In this document: positions 5,322-37,850 of the stretch, in pieces
How the letters are laid out: every line of letters begins with the position of its first letter
How positions within the stretch are numbered: position 1 is the stretch's first letter
Assembly (NCBI GenBank): GCA_040757335.1
Contig: JBFLXB010000028.1
Location: 1 to 50,950, forward strand
Origin: Nitrospirota bacterium
GTDB taxonomy: Bacteria; Nitrospirota; Nitrospiria; 2-01-FULL-66-17
Direction of reading: 5' to 3'
Length of the DNA: 50,950 nt
Translations under genes and position numbers: made by a program
The notes under the pieces: model-generated
What the model was told of the DNA's origin: nothing
Seen by the model: the letters and a program-made list of their open reading frames with translations, nothing else
The model's database searches: none

Positions 5322-6691
5322 GCCAAGCGCACCACCTCGCGGTATTCCGGAACGCGGCAGGGCCACCCCAACTCTTCCTCGATGCGGTGGCGAAGCGCGT
5401 CCGCGGCCGCCGGTTCGCCGTGTACGATGAACGTCTTGCGAGGCGGTGTACGGAACGTCCGGAGCCAAGCCATGATCTCATCGGCGTCCGCGTGGGCGGA
5501 GATGTTGTTCATCGCTGCGACCTCCGCGTTGACCGGAACATACGCCCCGTGGATCTTGACCGACCGCGCGCCCGCGACCAGCGATGCGCCCCGCGTACCG
5601 GGAACCTGGTAGCCCGCGAACAGTATCGTATTCTTCGGGTCCGGGGCAAACGCCTTGATGTGGTGGACGACGCGGCCGCCGGTCGCCATGCCGCTCGCCG
5701 AGATGATGATCATCGGGCCCTCGCGGGTGTTCAGGCGTTTGGACTCCTGCATGTCGCCGACGACGTGGACCGATCGTCCGATCGCACGCCACTGATCGGG
5801 CGTGAGCCGGTGTTCGCCCTGATGGGCGGCGTAGACGCCGGTCGCATCGACGGCCATCGGGCTGTTGAGATACACTGGAATGTCGGGAATCCGCTTGGAG
5901 GCCTTCAATCGAGACACGAAAAACAGGACTGCCTGCGCCCGTCCCACGGCGAACGCGGGGATGATCAACACCCCGCCTCGCGTCGCGGTCCGGTTGATGA
6001 TCGCCGCAAGCGCCTCCTCCGGGTCGGTCGGATCGTGACGCCGATCCCCGTAGGTGGACTCCAACACGAGATAGTCCGGGGCTGCGATCGTCGCCGGCGC
6101 CCGCATGATGGGATCGTGCGGGCGCCCCAGATCGCCCGAAAACGTCACGGTCGTCCCCGCCAGCGACAACGACACGTACGACGCGCCCAACAAGTGCCCG
6201 GACGGATCGAGCCGAACCGTGAGCCCGTCTCCCAGGTCGTGGACCTTCTCGTAGCCGATCGGTACCAGGCGCGTGAGCGCGTGTTGAGCGTCCAGACGCG
6301 TGAACAGCGGGAGGGCGGGCGCATGTTTGGAGTACCCGTGCCGGTTGGCGTATTGCGCTTCCTCCTCTTGGAGGTACCCGGAATCCGGAAGCAGGATGCC
6401 GCACAGATCTCGCGTGGCCTCGCTGCACAATACCGGTCCCGCGAACCCTTGTTTGACCAGTACGGGCAGGTAGCCGCTGTGATCAACGTGGGCGTGCGTC
6501 AACACGACCGCGTGGATCGACGCCGGATCGACGGGCAGCGGCGCCCAGTTCCGGAGGCGCAGGTGCTTGAACCCTTGAAAAAGGCCGCAGTCCACGAGGA
6601 TTCTGCGCTTGGAGGCGATCACCAGGAATTTTGACCCGGTGACCGTTCCGGTGGCACCAAGAAACGTCAGGCGCATGGCATCAGGCGGCAT
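5318..6691 (-). CDS. Beta-CASP metallo-beta-lactamase ribonuclease (YSH1/CPSF-like, COG1236)
   Basis: The product is 457 residues. The N-terminal MBL domain has the metal-binding motif HAHVDHSG at about residues 75-82, GATGTVTGS near the start, and the later ligands DPSGHLLG and SGDLGRP. The beta-CASP domain follows (about 215-330). A C-terminal RNA-metabolising metallo-beta-lactamase motif (ISAHADADEIMAWL) completes the family. Such proteins are Zn-dependent RNA endo/exonucleases acting in the cytoplasm. It is the first gene of the operon with AMP phosphorylase and PRPP synthetase, which places RNA breakdown ahead of nucleotide salvage. An in-frame ATG at 6676 is an equally good start, since neither has a strong SD. 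A perfect 17-bp palindrome at 6728-6744 is a candidate operator. Confidence 0.9.
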   Translation of the reverse strand: MPPDAMRLTFLGATGTVTGSKFLVIASKRRILVDCGLFQGFKHLRLRNWAPLPVDPASIHAVVLTHAHVDHSGYLPVLVKQGFAGPVLCSEATRDLCGILLPDSGYLQEEEAQYANRHGYSKHAPALPLFTRLDAQHALTRLVPIGYEKVHDLGDGLTVRLDPSGHLLGASYVSLSLAGTTVTFSGDLGRPHDPIMRAPATIAAPDYLVLESTYGDRRHDPTDPEEALAAIINRTATRGGVLIIPAFAVGRAQAVLFFVSRLKASKRIPDIPVYLNSPMAVDATGVYAAHQGEHRLTPDQWRAIGRSVHVVGDMQESKRLNTREGPMIIISASGMATGGRVVHHIKAFAPDPKNTILFAGYQVPGTRGASLVAGARSVKIHGAYVPVNAEVAAMNNISAHADADEIMAWLRTFRTPPRKTFIVHGEPAAADALRHRIEEELGWPCRVPEYREVVRLA

Positions 6692-6727
6692 CGTGTGTTA
6701 TGTACCACAGGACGAGTACGCGCCGCC

Positions 6728-6744
6728 ATGACCCGACGGGTCAT
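6728..6744. promoter_or_regulatory. Perfect palindrome ATGACCCG-A-CGGGTCAT, candidate operator
   Basis: Two 8-bp arms meet around a single central base, 37 bases upstream of the MBL ribonuclease gene. A one-base centre is unfavourable for an RNA hairpin and no T-run follows on either strand, so a protein-binding site for a dimeric regulator fits better than a terminator. The binding protein is unknown. Confidence 0.4.
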
Positions 6745-6787
6745 CGGGGATCAACCGTTCGCAGTGGCAGCTGTGGGACCGAACCGG

Positions 6788-7246
6788 TCAAGCCGTGGAA
6801 GGCGGTAGGGTGGCGATGAGAATCCAGTAGTCGTGCACCGTGTTCACGACGCGCATGAAGTTCTCGAACTCCACGGGCTTTTGGATATAGGTGTTCACGC
6901 CAAGGTCATAACTCGCGACGATATCCTGCTCCCGTTGCGACACGGTGAGGATGATGACCGGAATCTTCTTCAGCGACTCGTCGCTCTTGATCCGTTTCAG
7001 CACGTCCAAGCCACTGACCTTCGGGAGGTTCAGATCGAGCAGGATCATCCCCGGCTGGGGGGAGGCGGCCGGGTTCTGATACTTGCCGCGCCGGTACAGG
7101 TAGTCCAGCGCTTCCTCACCGTCCCGCACCACCATCAGGTCGTTGCTGACGCGTCCCTTGGCGAACGCTCTGCGGGTAATCTCAATGTCCTGGAGGTTGT
7201 CTTCGACCAGGAGGATGGTGACCGGGCGAATGTGGTTGCTCATCAA
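6788..7246 (-). CDS. Single-domain response regulator (Rcp-like receiver)
   Basis: The 152-residue product is a lone CheY-like receiver. It has the acidic pair E15/D16 in LLVEDN, the phosphoacceptor Asp71 in LLDLNLP, a Thr-containing ILTVS strand, and the Lys of IQKPVEF. The insertion between strands (YLYRRGKYQNPAAS) is typical of Rcp-type receivers that partner with phytochrome-like kinases. It has no output domain, so it probably works by docking or in a phosphorelay. The start ATG overlaps the kinase stop by four bases (7243-7246), which strongly supports a cognate pair. Confidence 0.92.
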   Translation of the reverse strand: MMSNHIRPVTILLVEDNLQDIEITRRAFAKGRVSNDLMVVRDGEEALDYLYRRGKYQNPAASPQPGMILLDLNLPKVSGLDVLKRIKSDESLKKIPVIILTVSQREQDIVASYDLGVNTYIQKPVEFENFMRVVNTVHDYWILIATLPPSTA

Positions 7247-8499
7247 GAGCCTTTCCGTGCGGCCGGGAGCGTGAACAAGAACGTGCTGCCCTTACCCGGC
7301 TCGGACTCGACCCAGATGCGGCCCCCGCACCCCTCGACGATCTTCTTGCAGATCGCCAGCCCCGCACCAGTGCCCTCGAACTCCTCCTGAGCGTGCAACC
7401 GCTCGAAGAGTTCGAAGATCCGATCCCGATACCGCTGGTCGATGCCGATGCCGTTGTCCGCCACCGCAACACGCACGAACCGGTCGTCCTCTGCCGACGA
7501 AATCGTGACGACGGGTTTCTGACTCGTATTGAATTTGATCGCGTTGGAGATGAGGTTCTTCAGCAGTTCCCGCAACTGCGTGGCGTCGCAGACCACAGTA
7601 GGCAGCGACGCGGGGTACCGAATCTCCGCCCCCCGACTTTGAATCGCATAGGCCAGGTCGCGTTCGGCCTGCGCCACCGCACGGTTCAGGTCGACCGGTT
7701 CAGAGGTCGGGGCTTTGCGCGACAACGCGGCAAGCGTCAGCAGATCGTGGATCAAATCCTTCATCCGAACCGCGGACTGTTTGAGGAAGTTCAGATACCG
7801 TTTGCCCTGGTCGTCGAACCGGTCGCCGTAGTCCTCCAACAAGAATCCTGCAAAGGCTTCAATGCCCCGCAGCGGCTCCTTGAGGTCGTGGGACACGACG
7901 TGCGTGAAGTCGTCCATCTCCCGCACCTTGGCCTCGAGTTGCCTGGCCTGCGCCCGCAGTTGTTCCTCCGCTCGCTTGCGCTCCGTTACGTCCCGGAGAA
8001 TGCTGATGATGAGGGTGCCGTCGTCGGTGCGCATTGGGCTGAGGCTGATCTCCACTGGGAATTCCGTGCCGTCCTTCCTCCGGGCCGCGAGTTCCAACCC
8101 CGCGCCCATCGGACGGGTTTTTGGATCCTGGATGTACTGACGTCGCGAGGCGACGTGGCGCTCGCGTACGCGGTCCGGAATCAAGAGTTCCACCGGATGC
8201 CCCACCAGCTCATCGCGACGATACCCGAGGAGCACCTCGGTCTGAGCGTTCGCCAGGACAATGTTCCCTTCCGGATTGACCAACAAAATCGCGTCCGGGG
8301 CCGCCTCCAACAACCCGCGGAAGAGAGTATCCGTGCGACGGTTCTCGCGGTCGTCGCGTCTATCCCCGGCGCTCTTTGGCCGGAGGCGGTTGTCCGCCCC
8401 GGCGGTCGCAGGCGTGCGAGGCCTTTCCGTGCCCCTGCGACCCCCTGTTTTCTTCGCCAAACCCCGACTCCGCGGCCGCTTTGACCGTTCGTTGACCAA
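7243..8499 (-). CDS. PAS-domain sensor histidine kinase
   Basis: The 418-residue product has a basic, low-complexity N-terminus (about 1-50), one PAS domain (about 57-175, ending DVTERKRAEEQ), a linking coiled coil, and a HisKA domain with His204 in HVVSHDLKEPLRG. A HATPase domain follows, with NLISNAIKFN, DNGIGID and GTGAGLAICKK. No membrane segment is seen, so it is a cytosolic kinase. The DHp/ATPase type is the one often found in phytochrome-like kinases, but there is no GAF-PHY chromophore domain. The farthest-upstream start is a TTG at 8499 without a clear SD, so the true start may lie inside the disordered N-terminus. It is coupled to the Rcp-like receiver downstream and divergent from a LuxR-type regulator. 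Confidence 0.9.
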   Translation of the reverse strand: MVNERSKRPRSRGLAKKTGGRRGTERPRTPATAGADNRLRPKSAGDRRDDRENRRTDTLFRGLLEAAPDAILLVNPEGNIVLANAQTEVLLGYRRDELVGHPVELLIPDRVRERHVASRRQYIQDPKTRPMGAGLELAARRKDGTEFPVEISLSPMRTDDGTLIISILRDVTERKRAEEQLRAQARQLEAKVREMDDFTHVVSHDLKEPLRGIEAFAGFLLEDYGDRFDDQGKRYLNFLKQSAVRMKDLIHDLLTLAALSRKAPTSEPVDLNRAVAQAERDLAYAIQSRGAEIRYPASLPTVVCDATQLRELLKNLISNAIKFNTSQKPVVTISSAEDDRFVRVAVADNGIGIDQRYRDRIFELFERLHAQEEFEGTGAGLAICKKIVEGCGGRIWVESEPGKGSTFLFTLPAARKGS

Positions 8500-8521
8500 G
8501 GAAAACCAGACCCGTTATAAT
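8492..8521 (+). promoter_or_regulatory. Sigma-70-like promoter for the LuxR-type response regulator
   Basis: TTGACC (8492-8497), 18 bases, then a consensus TATAAT (8516-8521). The start codon lies at 8564, leaving a leader of about 35 bases with AGGAG at 8550-8554. The -10 overlaps a minus-strand TATAAC, so the divergent kinase gene may start from the same stretch. Confidence 0.65.
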
Positions 8522-8563
8522 CGGGGCGCCTCTACCTCATCACCAACCCAGGAGTCCCTGACG

Positions 8564-9226
8564 ATGAATGAGGCCTCGATCGCCATTCTGCTCGCGGAGG
8601 ATAGTCCCTCCGACGCCCAGATCATCCAGCGATCACTCAAAAGAGGGACCGTCACTAATCCATTGGTGGTAGCGCCCGACGGCCAAGCTGCGCTCGATCT
8701 GCTTCGTGAACCGTCTTCTCGGTTCGGTGTGTTGATCCTCGACATCCACCTGCCCAAGGTCGGGGGCCTCGACGTCCTCAAAGAGGCCCGTCGCATCGAT
8801 CCCGAACTCGTCGTGATCATGCTCACCGCTCGGGCGTCATTCCAGACCGCGGTCCAGGCGCTCCGCCGGGAGGGCGCCTTCGACTACCTGGAAAAATCCA
8901 AAGACGACCTCCCCCAGTTGGTCGACGCGGTTCGCCTGGCGCTGAAGCGCCGCGCACTCCGCCAGCAAACGCGCTGGAAGGTGATGTCGAAGACCGGGAC
9001 CGACCCGGTCGTCGACATGCAGTTCATCAAAGACCGTTTCAACCTCTCCGACCGCGAGGTCGACGTGATCAAATGCCTCTGTCGAGGGGACACCAACAAG
9101 GAAATCGGTGAACGGCTCTTTATCAGCGACCTCACCGTCAAGGGGCATCTCAAACATATCTACCAGAAGATGGGCGCTCACACCCGTTCCGCCGTGGTCT
9201 CCACCGTCCTGTGGCCAACGCCGTGA
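8564..9226 (+). CDS. NarL/LuxR-family response regulator
   Basis: The 220-residue product has a receiver domain (about 6-125) with acidic residues E12/D13 and phosphoacceptor Asp60 in LILDIHLPK. Its C-terminal LuxR helix-turn-helix reads LSDREVDVIKCLCRGDTNKE, then IGERLFISDLTVKGHLKHIY. It should bind DNA when phosphorylated. ATG 8564 is chosen because it directly follows AGGAG and a consensus promoter; the open frame upstream runs through the promoter into the divergent kinase gene. Its kinase may be the neighbouring PAS kinase, although that kinase already has a coupled receiver. Confidence 0.92.
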   Translation: MNEASIAILLAEDSPSDAQIIQRSLKRGTVTNPLVVAPDGQAALDLLREPSSRFGVLILDIHLPKVGGLDVLKEARRIDPELVVIMLTARASFQTAVQALRREGAFDYLEKSKDDLPQLVDAVRLALKRRALRQQTRWKVMSKTGTDPVVDMQFIKDRFNLSDREVDVIKCLCRGDTNKEIGERLFISDLTVKGHLKHIYQKMGAHTRSAVVSTVLWPTP

Positions 9227-9294
9227 CCTCCCCGGAGACCCCTCAGCCGCCACAATTGTCGAAGCAAGTTTGACCGACAAGGCCTGAAAAGGCT

Positions 9295-9312
9295 ACACCC
9301 CGAATGGGGTGT
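9295..9312 (+). terminator. Possible terminator hairpin after the response regulator
   Basis: ACACCCC-GAAT-GGGGTGT forms a 7-bp hairpin about 70 bases after the response regulator stop. A run of nine T residues (9333-9341) occurs only 20 bases later, so this is not a classic intrinsic terminator. It may instead be a convergent boundary between this gene and the minus-strand tRNA genes. Confidence 0.3.
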
Positions 9313-9347
9313 TCGGTGAACGCGAAGCCAGGTTTTTTTTTGACGAG

Positions 9348-9425
9348 TGGTGTCCCCAACGGGATTTGAACCCGTGTTGCCGCCGTGAAAGGGCGATGTC
9401 CTAGGCCGGGCTAGACGATGGGGAC
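9348..9425 (-). tRNA. tRNA-Glu (anticodon TTC)
   Basis: The minus strand folds as a complete cloverleaf: acceptor GTCCCCA/TGGGGAC, D-arm, anticodon loop CTTTCAC with TTC, T-arm ACGGG-TTCGAAT-CCCGT, and an encoded CCA. It lies 149 bases downstream of tRNA-Lys on the same strand and probably shares its transcript. Confidence 0.95.
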
Positions 9426-9574
9426 CCTTCCGAGCTTGCTTAGCCAAACGTAGGCGCGTTTTGCAGCGCCGAGGCTTGGAGAGGCTTTTGACCTTGCCTT
9501 GCTTCAACCTCGCTTGCGTAGCCGCCCGCAGGCCCTGAACTCAAGGGCCGAGGACGGAGATGTTTCGAAGAATT

Positions 9575-9650
9575 TGGTGAGCCGCCTGGGCCTCGAACCC
9601 AGGACACCCGCCTTAAAAGGGCGGTGCTCTACCAACTGAGCTAGCGGCTC
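9575..9650 (-). tRNA. tRNA-Lys (anticodon TTT)
   Basis: The minus strand gives acceptor GAGCCGC/GCGGCTC, D-arm GCTC-AGTTGGTAGA-GC, anticodon stem CCGCC-CTTTTAA-GGCGG with anticodon TTT, T-arm CTGGG-TTCGAGG-CCCAG, and an encoded CCA. A sigma-70-like promoter lies at 9680-9709. The gap to tRNA-Glu (9426-9574) holds no gene, only a GGCCCT/AGGGCC hairpin without a T-run. Confidence 0.95.
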
Positions 9651-9679
9651 ACTCGTCTATTTCCAGTAAAAGGCGCGGG

Positions 9680-9709
9680 ATCGTAGCAGACGGCCGCGCG
9701 CAGTGTCAA
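9680..9709 (-). promoter_or_regulatory. Promoter of the tRNA-Lys/tRNA-Glu unit
   Basis: On the minus strand TTGACA (9704-9709) is followed after 18 bases by TACGAT (9680-9685), placing the start about 20-25 bases before tRNA-Lys. The stop codon TGA of purA lies inside the -35 hexamer. Confidence 0.55.
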
Positions 9710-11001
9710 GCGCTGAACGCGCGTCGCAGCAGGATCGTCTGATCGCGCTTGGAGCCCGTGGAAATCAGATCCACCGGGCACCCCACCAGATCGGACAGTC
9801 GCTCCAAGTATCTCCGCGCGTTCACGGGGAGTTCCTCGTAGCGCGTAATGCCGACCGTGGGCTGCTTCCACCCGGGCAATGTCTCGTAGATCGGCTCGCA
9901 CCGTTCGAAGTGCTCGGCCACCGCGGGAACCGTGGTCACCGTCGCCCCGCCCAAGCGATACGCGGTGCAGACCTTGATGTCGGAACAGTCGTCCAGGACG
10001 TCCAACTTGGTGATCGCCAAACCGGACAACCCGTTCAAGCGGACCGCGTAGCGGACGACCACCGCATCGAACCACCCGCAGCGCCGGGGTCTTCCGGTGG
10101 TGGCGCCGAATTCCTGACCCTTGGCCCGCAATTCCGCACCGCCCTGATCATCGTGGAGCTCGGTGGGAAACGGGCCCTCCCCGACTCGGGTCGAGTAGGC
10201 CTTGGCCACTCCCACTACGCGATCGATCCCGCCGGGCCCGATCCCGGTCCCGATCATCGCGCCGCCGGCCGTGGCGCTGGAGGAGGTGACGAAGGGGTAC
10301 GTGCCGTGGTCCACGTCCAGCAACGTCCCCTGCGCGCCCTCGAACAACACACGGCGGCCCGACGCGATGGCCTGGTGCAGCAACTCGGCGGTGTCGGCGA
10401 TGTACGGCCGTAATCGCTCCGCATAGCCGAGGTAAGCCTTATACACGGAGTCCACCTCAAACCCTTTGACGCCATATAGCTGACCGAGCAGGTAGTTCAT
10501 GTCCGTGAGACTGCGGGTCAGCTTCAGGCGGAAGAGGTCGGGATCCAACAGGTCGGCGACGCGCAACCCGACCCTGGCCATCTTGTCGGCGTAGGCCGGA
10601 CCGATGCCCCGTCCGGTGGTCCCGATCTTGCGAGCGCCTTTGTGTTTCTCGCTCTCTTTGTCGATCGCCTTGTGGTACGGCATGATCAGGTGCGCGCGGT
10701 CGCTGACGGCGAGACGGCCCTTCAGGTCGATGCCCTTGGCGGTGAGGGCGTCTACCTCATCCAGCAGGGCTGCCGGATCGATGACCACCCCGTTTCCGAT
10801 CACGCACACCTTTCCGGGATGGAGAATGCCTGAAGGCACCAGGTGCAGGATGAACTGGTTGGTGTCGACCACCACGGTGTGTCCCGCGTTGTGGCCACCC
10901 TGGAAGCGCACGATCACTTCGGCGTCCGGAGCGAGGAGATCCACGATCTTCCCCTTCCCTTCGTCTCCCCACTGCGTACCGATCACGACCACTGCAGGCA
11001 T
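9706..11001 (-). CDS. purA: Adenylosuccinate synthetase
   Basis: The 431-residue product has the family's usual length and its marks: VVVIGTQWGDEGKGKIVD at the N-terminus (the GDEGKGK nucleotide loop), GGHNAGHTVV, GTTGRGIGPAYADK in the middle, and GRPRRCGWFDAV and STGSKRD near the end. It joins IMP and aspartate with GTP to give adenylosuccinate, the first committed step to AMP, in the cytosol. ATG 11001 is preferred over an ATG ten codons upstream because it has GGTGGAG before it and matches the family start. The leader contains a hairpin with a T-rich tail at 11026-11059. That cannot be the previous gene's only terminator without also lying in the purA mRNA, so attenuation is possible. Confidence 0.97.
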   Translation of the reverse strand: MPAVVVIGTQWGDEGKGKIVDLLAPDAEVIVRFQGGHNAGHTVVVDTNQFILHLVPSGILHPGKVCVIGNGVVIDPAALLDEVDALTAKGIDLKGRLAVSDRAHLIMPYHKAIDKESEKHKGARKIGTTGRGIGPAYADKMARVGLRVADLLDPDLFRLKLTRSLTDMNYLLGQLYGVKGFEVDSVYKAYLGYAERLRPYIADTAELLHQAIASGRRVLFEGAQGTLLDVDHGTYPFVTSSSATAGGAMIGTGIGPGGIDRVVGVAKAYSTRVGEGPFPTELHDDQGGAELRAKGQEFGATTGRPRRCGWFDAVVVRYAVRLNGLSGLAITKLDVLDDCSDIKVCTAYRLGGATVTTVPAVAEHFERCEPIYETLPGWKQPTVGITRYEELPVNARRYLERLSDLVGCPVDLISTGSKRDQTILLRRAFSA

Positions 11002-30158: not shown

Positions 30159-33134
30159 TTACCGAGCGACTCCCCCCACCACGCGTCCCCCGAATGTCGC
30201 CGCGTAGAGGGATCTCGGATTCCACGGATCAAGGACGACGGACACGATCGGGCCCGCGGCCTTGACCCCGTCGGCGCGACGCCACGTCCGTCCGCCGTCC
30301 GCCGTCGTCATCACACCGTCCGGCGTCCCGGCGAGCACCGTCGCCGGCTGTTCGGGGTCGATTGCCAGGCACAACACCGGGATGGGCGCCCCGCTCCCCA
30401 TCAGGGCCCAGCTCTTGCCTCGGTCCAGGCTTCGGTACGCGCCGGCAGGGGTCCCGACGTACACCGTGCTGGAAATCCGCGGGTCAAGGCCGATGGCGTA
30501 CACGATGCGCTCCGGGAAATCTTCCAGCGCCCGCCACGTCGCGCCCCCGTCGTCGCTGCGAAACAACCCGGCGCCGCTTGTTCCCGCGTAGAGCGCGATC
30601 GGCCGGTTCTCCAACGCAGGGACGCTCGAGTCGCCCGCATCCACCCCCAGCGAGGTGACCCGGTACACGGCGGAACCGATCCTGGTCTCGTCCCACGTCG
30701 CTCCGCGGTCCGTCGAGCGGTAGAATCGGCCGCCGAACCCGCCCGCGTAGATCATGTGCGGCGACCGGGGGTTGACCGCCAGGGAAAACACTCGAACATC
30801 ACTCATCCCCCGGTCCCGCAACTCCCACGCGCCTCCCCCGTCGCGGCTCACGAATACTCCTGACGATGATCCGAGGTACACCACGTTCGAATCACTGGGA
30901 TCCACCGCCACCGCCGTGGTGTGTGCCGCGCGCGGATCGGTTGTCATGGATTGCCACGTGCGTCCGGCGTTCACGCTTCGCTTCACGCCCCACCCGTCCG
31001 TTCCAGCGGCCCAGACGATCCGCGGGACTCGCGGATCCACGGCCAACGCCACGGTCGAGGGCACGACGCTCCCTGGCGCGGCCGACGCCGAACGCGCGTC
31101 GGCGACCAGCGCCGCCTCAGGACAACCGGTGGCGTACCCGGTGTCGGAGGGACAGGCATCGATCCTGTCGGGAAACCCGTCGTCGTCGACGTCGCGGAGC
31201 CACGCCAAGGTTTCTCCGTAGGCCTCGGGCGCGTTGACGCACGCAAAGGACGTGAGAGACGACCCGTCCGGCGCACGGACCGCTCCTTCGATGGCACACG
31301 GCGTACGGAACAGCCACTCGGGGTTGAAGCGCTCCACCCCGGAGTCTTGCCCCGCGACCATGAAGTGTTCGGAGACTCTTCCGTCTCCGTCGAGATCGGT
31401 CGGCAGTTGGTCGCTTTGGTAGAGGATCAGGGTCCGGAGAAACGCGACCAGGGCATCACGGTCCTGACGCGAGGCTCCGCGGTATCGCGTTGCCGACTCG
31501 GCTGCCTCGCCGCCGTGCCGCCGAATCACATCGTCCAGCGTCAGACTTGCGCCATCGTGTCCGTATGGCGCTGAACTACCCACGCCCCACAAAGGAGCCG
31601 TCCGAAATCGGGTGACCTTCGCTCCGTTGAACAACGTCTCGGCAAACGCCGGTCCCATCTCGTGGTGCTTGAAGTCCGAAAAGATCCCGCGGACCGTTGC
31701 CGAGCCCCGACGTGGAACCCACCCCCCGGCAATGTGGTCGGCCAAGAGCGTGACCCTGCCCTCGAGGCGTCCGACGGGTTCCCGGTACGCGACGGCCAGA
31801 TCAAAGAATCGTCGATCACCGTCGTAGCGTTGATACCGGTCGGCATGATCGACGCTCGCCGCTTCGATCCGCCAATCGGGCACGTGACAGACGGCGCAGC
31901 CTAGGGTCTCGAACACCGCACGACCGCGCCGAGTTTGCGGAGTCTGCCGCCCCTCCCCCGGCGCCGAAGCACTCAGCATGTACCACTCGGCAAGGTCGAC
32001 ATCGCCCTCGGAAATCTCATTGATCGCCCCATCCCCGTCGGGGTCGTCCAGGCTGAGGCCGCGGTCGCTGACGCGAAGGCCGCGGTCGGCCGGCGCGTGA
32101 ATGGCGAACTGGCGCGCCCCCGCGTTGGACACGGCCGCGAGGCCGTCGCCCGCTCGTTCATCGTGGTGCAGGCCGTCGTCGACTTGCAGCGTGGGATCGT
32201 AGGCTTGCATCCCGGTGTGCGTGTCGATGGGATCGTTGAAAAACACGCGCAACGTGGGAGCCATCGCACCCTCGGTCTCTCCCCAACCGAACGGCATCAT
32301 CTCGAGGTTGTACCCCGCGACGGTGAGATCGCGCAGGTTGATCACACCGTCGCCGTTCTCGTCCGCGAGCACCCGGCGTCCCTCCTCGTCCACGTACCAC
32401 ACGCGGAACACCTTATTGAGGTCCGGCGCACCGTCTTGGTTACGGTCCCCGCACCACCCATACTCCACGGGCGGCGCGCCCGGGATCGGAGCGATCCGGA
32501 CCGGTTCATCGGGGATATCTTTGATACGGATGAATCCGCGACGCGCCGGATCGCATGCCTGCAACACTTTGAGACGGGTTTGCAGGCCGATCATCTCGAC
32601 CAATCCGCCTCCGAAAAAGTGCGGCGTATTTCTCCCCGCCCCCGCTCCTTTGGGAATGTTGCCGCCCGCACCCGGTTCCCGGAACGGTATCCCGTGGCAC
32701 AGACCGCACGAGTTCACATGGTCGCGGCCCAGACGAGGGGTCACGCGATCGCCCAGCAGCTTCGGTTCGAAGAACGAGCCGGCTCGGCCGAACGCACCGT
32801 CGCGACCCCGAAACTCCCGCTGCGTCAGGTTCCTCCCCCGCTGGAACGCGAGCCAGGGGTCCACGTCTTGTAAGTAACGTGACCCGCCTTCGAGGGATGG
32901 ATCGGTCGTATGCACTACGCGAACGCGACGATCCTTGACCGACTTTCCCGTGACGTCTTTTGCGCCCAGCGAGGTGTCGCTCGAACTGCCAGGCCGCTCG
33001 GACAATTGGGCATGGGCCACGGACCAGGCCGTCAGCCACGGCAGGCCCGCGGCGCCGAAGAGGACTATGGCCAGACTCCAGCCGACCCTCCGTCCTTCTT
33101 GACGATGCCGCCCTTGATCTGGTCGTCTCAGCAT
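30159..33134 (-). CDS. Di-heme oxidoreductase-like protein fused to Ca-binding motifs and a BNR beta-propeller
   Basis: The 991-residue product has an N-terminal signal/anchor (about residues 18-42). A di-heme thiol-oxidoreductase/peroxidase-like region (DUF1111 type) follows, with CGLCH near 144 and CAVCH near 417. Several Asp-rich, calcium-type loops occur: DRNQDGAPD, DENGDGVIN, DPDGDGAIN, DLDGDGRVS and DVDDDGFPD. From about 690 to the end there are seven or so BNR/sortilin-like blades (SVNAGRTW, SRDGGGAW, STDRGATW, SDDGGATW, SLDRGKSW, TADGGRTW) forming a likely beta-propeller. It should be periplasmic or outer-membrane exposed. The combination of heme electron transfer and a propeller is unusual; partner and substrate are unknown. 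It lies 66 bases after the preceding membrane-protein gene. Confidence 0.85.
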   Translation of the reverse strand: MLRRPDQGRHRQEGRRVGWSLAIVLFGAAGLPWLTAWSVAHAQLSERPGSSSDTSLGAKDVTGKSVKDRRVRVVHTTDPSLEGGSRYLQDVDPWLAFQRGRNLTQREFRGRDGAFGRAGSFFEPKLLGDRVTPRLGRDHVNSCGLCHGIPFREPGAGGNIPKGAGAGRNTPHFFGGGLVEMIGLQTRLKVLQACDPARRGFIRIKDIPDEPVRIAPIPGAPPVEYGWCGDRNQDGAPDLNKVFRVWYVDEEGRRVLADENGDGVINLRDLTVAGYNLEMMPFGWGETEGAMAPTLRVFFNDPIDTHTGMQAYDPTLQVDDGLHHDERAGDGLAAVSNAGARQFAIHAPADRGLRVSDRGLSLDDPDGDGAINEISEGDVDLAEWYMLSASAPGEGRQTPQTRRGRAVFETLGCAVCHVPDWRIEAASVDHADRYQRYDGDRRFFDLAVAYREPVGRLEGRVTLLADHIAGGWVPRRGSATVRGIFSDFKHHEMGPAFAETLFNGAKVTRFRTAPLWGVGSSAPYGHDGASLTLDDVIRRHGGEAAESATRYRGASRQDRDALVAFLRTLILYQSDQLPTDLDGDGRVSEHFMVAGQDSGVERFNPEWLFRTPCAIEGAVRAPDGSSLTSFACVNAPEAYGETLAWLRDVDDDGFPDRIDACPSDTGYATGCPEAALVADARSASAAPGSVVPSTVALAVDPRVPRIVWAAGTDGWGVKRSVNAGRTWQSMTTDPRAAHTTAVAVDPSDSNVVYLGSSSGVFVSRDGGGAWELRDRGMSDVRVFSLAVNPRSPHMIYAGGFGGRFYRSTDRGATWDETRIGSAVYRVTSLGVDAGDSSVPALENRPIALYAGTSGAGLFRSDDGGATWRALEDFPERIVYAIGLDPRISSTVYVGTPAGAYRSLDRGKSWALMGSGAPIPVLCLAIDPEQPATVLAGTPDGVMTTADGGRTWRRADGVKAAGPIVSVVLDPWNPRSLYAATFGGRVVGGVAR

Positions 33135-33200: not shown

Positions 33201-34334
33201 TCATGTTCCGACCCTGAATAGGCAGTACCGGGCGGCATCCTGGAGCACCGTGTCTTCGGATGCGACTTGGGTACAGGGAGGATGCGGACCGCCGAAGTAC
33301 AGAACCCTCACCGGAGCGGTGTCACGGACCAAAACCGGATAGAGGTAGTACGCGGCCCGCCCTTTCCAGAATACGGACACGACCGGATCTTCTCCATGGC
33401 GCGCCTTGAATTCAACCGCCGAGCCCGAAGGCAGCAGGCGAGTCACCTCACCCATGTCCTCCCACAACGGAACACCGTCGATCAGGTGGTAGGCCTCCGC
33501 CCGGTTCCGGTCGCCGAATCGCCGGACGTCCACCCCCAGCGCGATGATCTGATGATAGAAGAGGAACAGGAACCCGACGCCCCACACCGCCACCGCGGTG
33601 GCCCATGCACACCTGCGGACGATGCTCCGAATTCCGGAGTTCCCCCTCACAAGTTGCGCGAGGACTCCGGCGACCAACACTATCGGCATCAGGACGATCC
33701 AGACCGATCGTCCGTTGATCACCGGAGGCGGAAGCGTGTGCATCGAAAAACCCGACAGGGCGGTCGTCTCACCGGGCAACCGCGACCAGAGCTCCTTGAC
33801 CGCCGTAACCCACCACGGACCACTCGGCTCGAAACCTATCGAGGCGACGACCGCCGGCTGGACAGCGAGCGACGGAACGAGTACGACCTCGACCACCCGG
33901 AGGTCGGCACGAGGCGGAATGGGCAGCGAAACCTCGACATCATTGAAGGTCCCGCCACCCGGCACATCAAAAGGGACCAGCACCCGACTGGAACCGTCGT
34001 GCCCGCTCAACACGAGGCCGACCCGACCCTGGGTTGCGTCGCCCACCTTGACGCGCAGATGCATCCGCTCGAACGCCGCAGGATCGTGATCCATCTGACC
34101 GATCGAGATCACGGCCGCGTTCGCCATCGGGGCGACCGTCAATCCCTCCTCGGTGCGAAGTAAGCGACTGTTGCTGGACCTCCATGCAGACGCTGCCCCT
34201 GTGAAATCCCACATCGGCTTCAACGGGGACAATTCCGCGGGCAACGGCCCGGCGCCCAGCGCCACAACGCCCCACACCAGCAAACCCGCGAGGAGGACTG
34301 CCGCTATCGGTTTCATCACCACGCCGACCGTCAC
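33201..34334 (-). CDS. Membrane protein of unknown function with periplasmic beta-rich domain
   Basis: The 377-residue product is not a family I recognise. It has an N-terminal membrane segment or signal (MKPIAAVLLAGLLVWGVVAL). A beta-rich extracytoplasmic part (about 30-190, with VRLVL-like strands) resembles a carbohydrate-binding jelly roll. Two further membrane segments follow (about 208-226 and 240-262), then a C-terminal domain ending ARYCLFRVGT with a Cys-rich stretch. The GTG at 34334 overlaps the previous stop, and an ATG at 34316 is an alternative. It is coupled to the GT-C-like protein, so a role in the same glycan or lipid-linked step is a guess from context. Confidence 0.7.
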   Translation of the reverse strand: MTVGVVMKPIAAVLLAGLLVWGVVALGAGPLPAELSPLKPMWDFTGAASAWRSSNSRLLRTEEGLTVAPMANAAVISIGQMDHDPAAFERMHLRVKVGDATQGRVGLVLSGHDGSSRVLVPFDVPGGGTFNDVEVSLPIPPRADLRVVEVVLVPSLAVQPAVVASIGFEPSGPWWVTAVKELWSRLPGETTALSGFSMHTLPPPVINGRSVWIVLMPIVLVAGVLAQLVRGNSGIRSIVRRCAWATAVAVWGVGFLFLFYHQIIALGVDVRRFGDRNRAEAYHLIDGVPLWEDMGEVTRLLPSGSAVEFKARHGEDPVVSVFWKGRAAYYLYPVLVRDTAPVRVLYFGGPHPPCTQVASEDTVLQDAARYCLFRVGT

Positions 34335-35737
34335 GTACCGCGCCCCACCGCCATCTCGGGACGACTCCCCTCAGCACTCGTTCGCTCCGATACCCACCGG
34401 CCCAACACCTGTACCACCCACAGGGCGGCGAGCGGCGCCACGTGCAGAATGAGGCGGTGCACCACGGTACCGTCTTCCAGGAAACGGAAGAGATCCGTCG
34501 TCGCGAACAGGAACGCAATGCCGCCCAGATAGAAGATCACCGGCCAGAAGAGAAACAGGGACTGCGGGCTCACAACTTCACGCCATCGATGGATCACTGC
34601 GAGTGCAAACAGCGCCCAGAGGATCAGCCAGTTCCCGTCCAGAAAGAACGATCGGAAAAACACCGCCGCGATTCTCAACCAGCGGTCGAACAGCGGAACC
34701 ACCGACGACCCGTCCGGTTGGAACGTGGACGAAATTCCAAAATGGAGTTTCACCAGACTCCACGCGCCCCAGACAAGGAGGGGAGGCGCCAGATAGATCG
34801 ACACGTCCACCCACCCCTTCGTGATGAGAACCGGCGACCGGCGAGCAGCCAGCACGAGCAGCAGGAGGGCGTTGCACGCCACAAACACGACTCCGTCCAC
34901 CCTTGTCCACACCAGCCCCGCCCCGAACAGCGCCGCCAAGACGAGATCTCGCCGATCGCCGGATCGAGCATAACGCGTCAGGGCGATCGCCCCCCCGAAC
35001 ACAAAGTAGGCGAGCGGGAGATTGGTGTAGCCGTCATGGCCATGTTGAAGAACGAGCGGGAGTCCTGCCACGAACAGCGTCCCGAGCATCGCGGGCCGCG
35101 CCTCCCATTGTTCGCGGAGCGAGCCGTAGGCGAGATACAGGAGCGAGAGGAGATAGCCGGGAAACAGGAGCTTGACCGCGACGTCATCCCACGACCCGAC
35201 GAACCAGGAAACCCAGACCTCCTGTAACGAGATACCCAAGGGATAATCCGGATAGTTCGGGCTTCCGCCCCACCCAAACAGAGCGGGGGATGGAATGGCG
35301 GCCTCCAAAAAGATCACCTTGGCCTTGAAGGCGTAGGTGGCCCATGCATCCCAGAATTGAATCGGTTTGAGAACGGCCCGTCCGGTCACGATCAGCCACA
35401 GGAGAGCAAGAACCGTCGCCCCTCCCCACCACAATGGATCGCGGACCACAACCATCTCGCCCAGACCGGTCCGTGGGGCTCCCGGCAACCGGCCCCGCCA
35501 TGCACGCGCCAGCCACCACCCGGCCGCCGGGCCGAGAATGACGGCTATCCCCGCCGCCGGAGTAAGCGGGAGGCCGGCCAGGCCGGCGGCCCCCATCATG
35601 GTGGAGATCCACACGAGGCCCAGCCCGTACGCGAATCCCACACGTTGCGGTCCGTTGAGATGGCGAAGGATCGGCGCCGCGACAAACCCGACCGCCCAGA
35701 TGGACGCAACACCCAGAGCGCCCCAACCGATGGTCAC
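34331..35737 (-). CDS. Polytopic membrane protein, GT-C glycosyltransferase-like
   Basis: The 468-residue product has about 10-12 membrane segments. An early periplasmic-loop motif (FWDAWATYAFKAKVIF) and NYPDYPLGISLQEVW resemble the acidic first loop of GT-C enzymes that use polyprenyl-phosphate sugars. LVWTRVDGVVF fits the same fold. The donor and acceptor are unknown and the family call is tentative. The start is a GTG at 35737 that overlaps the stop of a tiny upstream frame (GTGA). Its stop overlaps the next membrane protein gene, so the two are coupled. Confidence 0.65.
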   Translation of the reverse strand: MTIGWGALGVASIWAVGFVAAPILRHLNGPQRVGFAYGLGLVWISTMMGAAGLAGLPLTPAAGIAVILGPAAGWWLARAWRGRLPGAPRTGLGEMVVVRDPLWWGGATVLALLWLIVTGRAVLKPIQFWDAWATYAFKAKVIFLEAAIPSPALFGWGGSPNYPDYPLGISLQEVWVSWFVGSWDDVAVKLLFPGYLLSLLYLAYGSLREQWEARPAMLGTLFVAGLPLVLQHGHDGYTNLPLAYFVFGGAIALTRYARSGDRRDLVLAALFGAGLVWTRVDGVVFVACNALLLLVLAARRSPVLITKGWVDVSIYLAPPLLVWGAWSLVKLHFGISSTFQPDGSSVVPLFDRWLRIAAVFFRSFFLDGNWLILWALFALAVIHRWREVVSPQSLFLFWPVIFYLGGIAFLFATTDLFRFLEDGTVVHRLILHVAPLAALWVVQVLGRWVSERTSAEGSRPEMAVGRGT

Positions 35738-35946: not shown

Positions 35947-37596
35947 TCATTGGTGGCTTCCTTCGGTAATCGTCGTCCGCTGATCAGCGGAAACCGCGGT
36001 CAACCGATCCGTGATCCCGCTCGGCCAACGAACCGTGACCTCGTCCGCCGCTGACGCGTCGCCCAAGCCGAACAGCACCGCACGTTCACTCTGCGAGAGG
36101 TAGCTTGACCCGGATCTGACCATCCGAGTCTGGGTTCGCCCTCCTGCCGTGACTCTGATCACGGCTCCCAGGCCGTCACGATTGCTCGACACGCCCACCG
36201 GTTTGATCCTGAGCCAATGCCCCTTCGCGAGTTGGTTGCGATAGAGACGAGCCGGACCGTTGTTCTCGGTAAACGCCAGATCCGGATCGCCGTCCCGATC
36301 AAGGTCAGCCGCCGCGAGGCCGCGGCCCACGAACGGCGCGCTGAGACCGACCGCCTCGCCGACCTCGACGTACGTGCCGTCGTCCTTCCCGCGAAACACC
36401 AGCGGTCGCTCCGCTTGCGGCACGCCGCCGTCGAGCGCGCGGGCCAATTCGGCGTCCACGTGGCCGTTGGCCGCCACGACATCGAGCCGTCCGTCCAGAT
36501 CCACATCCACGAAGACCAGCCCGAACGTGAGGAACGGCAGACTGGGGCCGAGCAGCCCCGTCTCACGCACGCGATCGTGGAAGCGACCGTCCTCGTCGCG
36601 TTGGTAGAGCGCGAACCCCTCGCCGATGAAGTTGCCGATGACCGTACGTCCGCGCGCGTCGTCCACGTCGATCCCCATCCCGGCCCGCGCCATCCCGAAT
36701 CGGCCGGGCCAAGGCGCGAGTTTCGCGCTCCAGTCTTCGAACGTCCCGTCCCCCCGGTTGCGATATAAAAAATTGGGCATTTGGTCGTTCGCGACGAAGA
36801 GATCGACCCACCCGTCTCCGTCCGCATCCAGCATGGCGGCGCCGAGCGCCTTGCCGGGCTTGGCAAGGCCCACACGCGACGTCGCGTCTTCGAATCGACC
36901 GTTGCCCACGTTGCGAAAGAACCGGGGCGAATCGGGCGGGTACGGATCCGGGCCGCAAAACACCTTGACTCGCCCCTCGAGTCGGCAGACCTGATCGGTT
37001 TCCTGGGACCACGCCACGTACCGGCAGACGAACAGGTCCAGTCGCCCGTCCGCATCCGCGTCGAACCACACGGCGCAGGTGCTCCAACCCGTGTCGCCGA
37101 CGCCCGCGACATCCGTCACCTCGGCGAACCGCCCCCCGCCCTCGTTGTGAAACAACGACACGCCTCCGTGGCCGGTCAGCAGCACGTCTTCGCGCCCGTC
37201 GTTGTCATAGTCGGCCGCGGCGCAGCCCATCCCGTATGAAGACGTGTTGATCCGGGACGCCGCGGTCACGTCCTCGAACCGGCCGTCGCCCCGGTTGCGA
37301 TAGACGGCGACGCCGGGCCCCGGGGCGGAGTCCTCCCACCGTCGGCCGCTCATGAACAGGAGGTCCGGGCGGTCGTCCGCGTCGAAGTCGATCACGCACA
37401 CGCCCGCCCCGAACGTCTCGGGATACCACGCCCGTCCGTCCGCCCCGTTCACGTGTCCGGCCCGCACGCCTGCGCGAGCCGTCACGTCCACGAAACCGAC
37501 CGCATCCGTTTCCGGAGCGATCCGAGCGCAGGCCCAGGCCGTCAGCAGGCCGACGAGCGCGGTCAGCACACCCCGGGCGACGGGAGCACCCGACAC
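35947..37596 (-). CDS. CRTAC1-family FG-GAP repeat protein with ASPIC/UnbV domain
   Basis: The product is about 549 residues. A signal peptide (RGVLTALVGLLTAWAC, possibly a lipobox) is followed by FG-GAP/VCBS repeats with calcium-type loops: DFDADDRPDLL, DYDNDGREDVL, DADADGRLDLF, DADGDGWVDLF, DVDLDGRLDVV and DLDRDGDPDLA. The C-terminal ASPIC/UnbV domain contains GVSSNRDGLGAVIRV. Such secreted proteins fold as integrin-like beta-propellers; their roles are mostly unknown. I prefer the GTG at 37596, which lies just after the Lrp-like stop and gives a normal signal peptide. A GTG at 37635 would add 13 residues overlapping the upstream gene. Confidence 0.88.
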   Translation of the reverse strand: MSGAPVARGVLTALVGLLTAWACARIAPETDAVGFVDVTARAGVRAGHVNGADGRAWYPETFGAGVCVIDFDADDRPDLLFMSGRRWEDSAPGPGVAVYRNRGDGRFEDVTAASRINTSSYGMGCAAADYDNDGREDVLLTGHGGVSLFHNEGGGRFAEVTDVAGVGDTGWSTCAVWFDADADGRLDLFVCRYVAWSQETDQVCRLEGRVKVFCGPDPYPPDSPRFFRNVGNGRFEDATSRVGLAKPGKALGAAMLDADGDGWVDLFVANDQMPNFLYRNRGDGTFEDWSAKLAPWPGRFGMARAGMGIDVDDARGRTVIGNFIGEGFALYQRDEDGRFHDRVRETGLLGPSLPFLTFGLVFVDVDLDGRLDVVAANGHVDAELARALDGGVPQAERPLVFRGKDDGTYVEVGEAVGLSAPFVGRGLAAADLDRDGDPDLAFTENNGPARLYRNQLAKGHWLRIKPVGVSSNRDGLGAVIRVTAGGRTQTRMVRSGSSYLSQSERAVLFGLGDASAADEVTVRWPSGITDRLTAVSADQRTTITEGSHQ

Positions 37597-37598
37597 GG

Positions 37599-37850
37599 TC
37601 AGAGGTGGGGAGCGGGCGGAGACAACACCAGACACGTCATGGTCTGCGTCACGCCGTCGATCGCCCGAATGTTGGGCAGGATGACTTCCCCGAGATGGTT
37701 GAGGTCTTGCGCCGCCACATGGACGACCATGTCGTAGACCCCGGTCACCATGTAGACCCCTTTGATGCCTTCGATGCGCCCGAGGGTTTTGTAGGCGCTC
37801 TTGGTGTGGTCGCCCGTGACGTTTACCAGAATGAACGCTTCGAATGCCAT
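37599..37850 (-). CDS. Lrp/AsnC ligand-binding (RAM) domain protein without DNA-binding domain
   Basis: The 83-residue product consists only of the regulator-of-amino-acid-metabolism fold: AFEAFILVNVTGDHTKSAYK, GVYMVTGVYDMVVHVAAQ, and ILPNIRAIDGVTQTMTCLVL. The helix-turn-helix of full Lrp/AsnC regulators is absent. ATG 37850 directly follows GGAGAGGATC, so a longer start at 37904 is rejected. Stand-alone RAM proteins form oligomers and may bind amino acids; some modulate full-length Lrp proteins. It lies 10 bases after moeA and immediately before the CRTAC1 gene, so it is co-transcribed, but the functional link is not obvious. Confidence 0.9.
   Translation of the reverse strand: MAFEAFILVNVTGDHTKSAYKTLGRIEGIKGVYMVTGVYDMVVHVAAQDLNHLGEVILPNIRAIDGVTQTMTCLVLSPPAPHL

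Follow-up and report, generated by a model that had tools for sequence, protein, structure and literature searches.

A long-form di-heme oxidoreductase joined to a C-terminal BNR propeller in an order of uncultured Nitrospirota

Introduction

The closest described precedent for a protein that joins a β-propeller to a di-heme domain comes from hydrazine synthase (HZS), since in Ca. Scalindua a single gene encodes the β and γ parts of this enzyme, which are a propeller and a CcP homologue with two hemes (PMC3655542). A query with the fused β-γ chain yields more than 100 RefSeq matches outside the anammox bacteria, many uncharacterised homologues among them, and a CRTAC1-family gene with FG-GAP repeats adjoins the HZS-like homologues of clades I-III (PMC12758564). 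Heme γ-II of hydrazine synthase is reported to be bis-His ligated (PMC12607021). For proteins of the DUF1111 family, also known as DHOR (PF06537), a link to imelysin operons for iron uptake has been described (PMC3143127).

Here we describe a 991-residue protein encoded in a stretch of 50,950 nucleotides (hereafter the window; contig JBFLXB010000028.1 of assembly GCA_040757335.1) from a Nitrospirota bacterium whose genome measures 3.56 Mb and is 99% complete. According to a preliminary description of this DNA, DUF1111-type di-heme proteins and BNR propellers are usually separate. This is right in part, but di-heme domains of the CcP/MauG type fused to a propeller have been published (PMC3655542, PMC12758564).

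Anatomy of the fusion protein

The fusion gene occupies positions 30159..33134 of the minus strand and encodes an exported long-form DHOR followed by a C-terminal BNR propeller, an assignment that rests on the reading frame, Pfam, the structure models and orthologues in two further genomes (G001 and G002). The preliminary description gave the same boundaries but left the strand unstated; the elements that it listed for the single frame, namely CGLCH and CAVCH motifs, at least five DxDxDG-like loops, six or more Asp-box blades and a signal sequence, were all located, with five loops and six Asp-boxes. Among 20,000 shuffles of the protein, two CxxCH motifs were never obtained and nor were five Asp-boxes. 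All features described below lie on the minus strand.

A hydrophobic stretch at about residues 17-40 ends in A-x-A-Q at residues 40-43 and, in the alignment, the orthologues have A(R/S)AQ preceding LSERPG at the matching position. Judged by eye from hydropathy and this junction, residues 1-42 (33009..33134) form a putative Sec-type signal sequence with probable cleavage before Q43, which would mean a location in the periplasm or outside the cell.

The di-heme core, including a C-terminal extension, spans residues 43-672 (31119..33008) and was delimited with AF2, Foldseek and profile matches. It contains the heme I motif CGLCH (residues 143-147; 32694..32708), which corresponds in the alignment to the N-terminal heme of CcpA and is the probable reaction centre, and the heme II motif CAVCH (residues 413-417; 31884..31898), probably that of an electron-relay heme. 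The Cys and His residues of the heme I motif are invariant in 43 sequences and those of heme II likewise; proteins for c-heme assembly are encoded in the genome. The high-potential heme of CcP has Met275 as its sixth ligand. His540 (31515..31517), which is invariant in 43 of 43 sequences, stands opposite Met275 of the Pseudomonas aeruginosa enzyme in one alignment and is one residue off in a profile alignment. Because of this invariance and correspondence, heme II is probably bis-His, through H417 and H540, rather than His/Met or His/Tyr. The core alignment places no His opposite CcP His71, so that the heme I site may be open.

Pfam DHOR (PF06537) matches residues 484-568 with 43.1 bits, against a gathering cut-off of 22, across profile positions 408-499 of 499 only. 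Since the last fifth of the profile alone is matched, we regard the protein as a divergent relative and not a typical DHOR; its orthologue L012 scores 54 bits. The C-terminus matches Pfam Sortilin-Vps10 (52.6 bits, cut-off 33; best stretch at profile positions 3-77 of 446) and BNR (40.3 bits, cut-off 27). No NCBIfam equivalog exceeds its own cut-off, those for RoxA, MauG, MbnH and Ycf48 all falling far under it.

The propeller (residues ~692-991; 30162..31061) is predicted to be seven-bladed from AF2, Foldseek and alignment. Asp-boxes begin at residues 720, 763, 807, 860, 902 and 944, and these six repeats of S-x-D-x-G-x-x-W, together with the propeller fold of the model, are what characterises a BNR propeller. 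Near the C-terminus of the window copy (30159-30210) about 14 residues and the last Asp-box are missing, both of which the two orthologues have; it therefore has six boxes against their seven.

Structure models and fold matches

A full-length AF2 model, built with 25 aligned sequences, resolved the propeller alone and left the di-heme half unusable, for which reason the core (residues 43-672) was modelled afresh with a deeper alignment of 43 sequences. The new model has a pLDDT of 83.7 and a pTM of 0.90, and residues ~692-987 of the propeller have pLDDT values mostly of 80-95. Core and propeller are each modelled well apart, not together in one good model. The structure prediction that the preliminary description had called for supports both the propeller and the di-heme core, and that description is borne out in its basic reading, an exported DUF1111/DHOR-type protein with two hemes and a BNR propeller at the C-terminus.

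Foldseek matches the propeller to GH74 enzymes, to a glycosyl-hydrolase-like BNR protein and to WD40-type propellers with seven blades, with TM-scores by target of at most 0.80. For the core, all 50 of the 50 solved matches listed are chains of CcP, MauG, MbnH, MacA, YhjA or HZS γ; TM-scores to these are low, as expected of a core about twice the size of the solved structures. Profile matches point in the same direction, with CcpA at 3.7e-9, MbnH at 6e-5, MauG at 8.8e-5 and HZS γ at 0.0026, RoxA (4b2n) reaching an E-value of 0.66. In the model, the two CxxCH motifs lie in two predicted cytochrome c lobes within a CcP fold, as expected of the bacterial CcP/MauG superfamily.

Stand-alone relatives and the position of the join

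Another lineage has stand-alone long DHORs, of about 600-660 residues, in three of its genomes (L009, L113 and four paralogues in G860). L009, L113, L114 and L120-L122 share 42-52% identity with the fusion protein over the whole core and have its C-terminal Ca-type loop, which resembles a thrombospondin type 3 repeat (residues 648-671; 31122..31193; from the alignment), but they lack the propeller, the chain stopping after the loop. As most stand-alone long DHORs finish at or shortly after this D-x-D-x-DGF-x-D loop, the join can be placed just past it; in the fused proteins the propeller begins about 20 residues further on. A possible propeller downstream of L009 was rejected: the frame stops after the thrombospondin-like loop, nothing propeller-like lies beyond, and a match extending to residue 728 overruns the stop.

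The five Ca-type DxDxDG loops of the fusion protein start at residues 230, 258, 364, 580 and 648. Three of them (230, 580 and 648) are present in the propeller-less L009; that at 364 (DDPDGDGAINE, residues 363-373; 32016..32048) recurs in almost every DHOR aligned, and that at 258 is limited to the fused clade. The preliminary description had counted calcium-type loops as a fused element in their own right, a view that has to be abandoned given that four of the five also occur without a propeller.

No member of the long DHOR subfamily that we came across has been characterised. The four stand-alone genes of G860 (L124:5989-10393:- and L125) are arranged as two tandem pairs, each composed of the same two divergent DHOR types, and this arrangement suggests that the pairs encode two-subunit enzymes.

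Origin, gene neighbourhood and distribution

Three genomes of one family sample the order: that of the window and, from a second genus, G001 and G002. Both of the latter encode the fusion at the matching locus, with about 65% identity to the 991-residue protein. An assembly chimera can be ruled out, since fusion and neighbourhood recur in these two genomes. A tree built from 43 cores unites the three fused proteins in a single clade (100/98) nested within the long-DHOR clade (100/100), which a long branch of 1.77 separates from the short DHORs. The simplest reading of these sequences is that the propeller was gained once, at the C-terminus of a member of the long subfamily.

The neighbourhood kept in all three genomes comprises genes for a thiolase, an acyl-CoA ligase, AlgH, the fusion protein, two membrane proteins, a CRTAC1-type protein, a protein of about 100 residues and a moeA-like protein. 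The 377-residue membrane protein, of unknown family (33201..34334), is encoded 66 bp upstream of the fusion gene in the same cluster; its gene overlaps by 4 bp that of the 468-residue polytopic membrane protein (34331..35737), which has a weak, below cut-off match to PMT_2-type glycosyltransferases. In G001 and G002 the order of these two genes (window positions 33201-35737) is reversed, and their products diverge much faster across the three genomes (32-58% identity) than their neighbours (60-89%). The CRTAC1-type protein, with FG-GAP repeats and UnbV_ASPIC (35947..37635), belongs to the cluster in all three genomes. The window's CRTAC1-type gene showed no similarity to the flanks of six regions with stand-alone DHORs or to those of L009, and the CRTAC1 link is therefore known for the fused clade only.

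A scan of 396 genomes of the phylum gave DHOR matches in 28, and the only frames longer than 700 residues were the fused ones; long DHOR frames read in the other lineage lacked Asp-boxes. A pattern scan of 84,980 species genomes, sensitive to close relatives only, confirmed one relative, without a propeller. The in-depth genome search covered two phyla, no plasmid record covered 80% of the query, and PHROGs gave no match. Among open-licence papers on DUF1111, di-heme oxidoreductases and BNR plus cytochrome c, the architecture is undescribed. The preliminary description had allowed that the same fusion might prove to be a widespread family already on record; this was not the case for the exact architecture, although related propeller and di-heme fusions are known. 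As seen here, the fusion is limited to one small group of uncultured bacteria, with similar heme-propeller fusions elsewhere.

Other heme proteins came to light in these surveys. The window genome encodes a second, very divergent DHOR-like di-heme protein (contig C24, L089:2181-4202:-), a 674-residue frame with CLGCH and CVGCH motifs. In proteins of a separate family, about 450-600 residues long, a single-heme c domain (KCNxCHGWTDPxLN) lies C-terminal to a BNR propeller; no Pfam name was found for this heme domain. The genes of the family (L091:2302-4065:-, 5787-7604:- and 8404-10032:-; L092:2151-3668:+; relatives in L094-L112) number 2-5 per genome, often in tandem, in 10 of 98 relatives from the class.

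Comparison with known systems

With the DHOR/DUF1111 family the fusion protein has in common two CxxCH motifs, a D-x-D-x-DG loop and the LWGVGSTAPYGHDG and RHGGE motifs, but its core of about 630 residues carries extra loops and is followed by the propeller. No imelysin was found among the four neighbours of the fusion gene scanned with Pfam. MauG, MbnH and bacterial CcP resemble the core in fold and heme order; they differ in having half its size, a His/Tyr or His/Met heme II in place of the predicted bis-His one, and no propeller. F510_1955 and GH74 proteins likewise have an Asp-box propeller, yet the propeller described here scores 120.5 bits against an NCBIfam cut-off of 175 and is joined to a di-heme enzyme. 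Sortilin (Vps10) has a ten-bladed domain, in contrast to the seven-bladed fold matches, and its profile is covered only partially.

The likeness to HZS β-γ goes further, in that one exported chain combines a seven-bladed propeller with a di-heme CcP/MauG-like domain, heme II is bis-His (predicted here), and a CRTAC1-type FG-GAP gene lies nearby, as for clades I-III. However, the propeller comes first in HZS β-γ and last in our protein, which moreover has a BNR propeller and a DHOR-type core about twice as long. Because the domains come in the reverse order and belong to other families, we consider it a variant of propeller and di-heme fusions. The fusion gene also has no adjacent α-type subunit gene: the sole HZS_alpha match of the window genome is on contig C15 (L129:8434-10908:-), not on C28. 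That HZS_alpha-domain protein has three CxxCH motifs and is also present in five other genomes of 31 searched. The fusion protein may work like HZS β-γ without being a member of that system.

Possible functions

The reading we favour, to which we give about an even chance, is that of an exported, enzymatic c-type di-heme oxidoreductase of the bacterial CcP/MauG superfamily to which a propeller was added once at the C-terminus. A small oxidant, for instance peroxide or oxygen, would react at heme I, heme II would relay electrons between heme I and a partner and, by analogy, the propeller would keep substrate or partner near the hemes, be it a protein or a surface glycan, perhaps the co-encoded CRTAC1-type protein. 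The preliminary description suggested a surface location and oxidation of metals or organic compounds; the present analysis supports neither.

A pure electron relay, with no chemistry at heme I, electrons exchanged with other exported cytochromes and the propeller as an assembly surface, is doubtful but the strongest of the alternatives. Several other propeller proteins with c-heme domains encoded in the genome could serve as partners, against which the structural matches in the superfamily are enzymes with an open heme I, a state that the lack of a His71 counterpart suggests here too. It is distinctly unlikely that the protein, like MauG or MbnH, oxidises residues of a partner recognised by the propeller. 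MauG chains and MbnH rank high among the structural and profile matches and the cluster encodes another exported protein, but heme II appears to have a His ligand in place of the Tyr of MauG and BthA, and the bis-Fe(IV) state is inaccessible to MauG Y294H and BthA Y463H (PMC6405878); the NCBIfam models for MauG (TIGR03791, 18.1 against 443.85 bits) and MbnH (TIGR04039, 18.9 against 362.85 bits) also speak against it.

A mode of action like that of HZS β-γ, in which heme I reduces a nitrogen species and the propeller shapes a channel leading to a partner subunit, seems improbable. The two kinds of module are the same, the predicted bis-His heme II is as in HZS (PMC12607021), HZS γ is among the core matches and the CRTAC1 gene is shared with clades I-III (PMC12758564). 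Apart from domain order and propeller family, what counts against this is that HZS γ is no closer to the core than MauG and that the stretch read around the HZS_alpha-domain gene on the other contig contains no di-heme β-γ-type gene. Less probable again is an oxygenase of hydrophobic compounds, of the RoxA or fatty-acid di-heme type, feeding the β-oxidation genes that adjoin the cluster in three genomes. RoxA and PA2077/PA2078 are indeed large relatives within the superfamily (PMC4496055), but RoxA is matched no better than noted above, RoxB scores 10.2 bits against a cut-off of 900, and AlgH, on the other strand, sits between the β-oxidation genes and the fusion cluster.

A bolder proposal, which we rate as unlikely, below the electron relay and a little above the MauG-like modifier, is that a propeller-docked di-heme enzyme has been invented independently a second time. 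It would be exported, substrate-specific and confined to one uncultured order, would act with the CRTAC1-type propeller protein in parallel to HZS β-γ without common descent, and would catalyse a reaction new to the superfamily.

Significance

The architecture is uncommon and lineage-restricted, and its combination of modules has precedent. The chemistry of the di-heme superfamily is diverse, extending from peroxide reduction through tryptophan modification and rubber cleavage to NO reduction in hydrazine synthase. A propeller joined to a di-heme core near a CRTAC1-type gene is now seen in two differently built architectures and, if propeller and CRTAC1-type protein share a purpose, the single-chain fusion would be a convenient test case.
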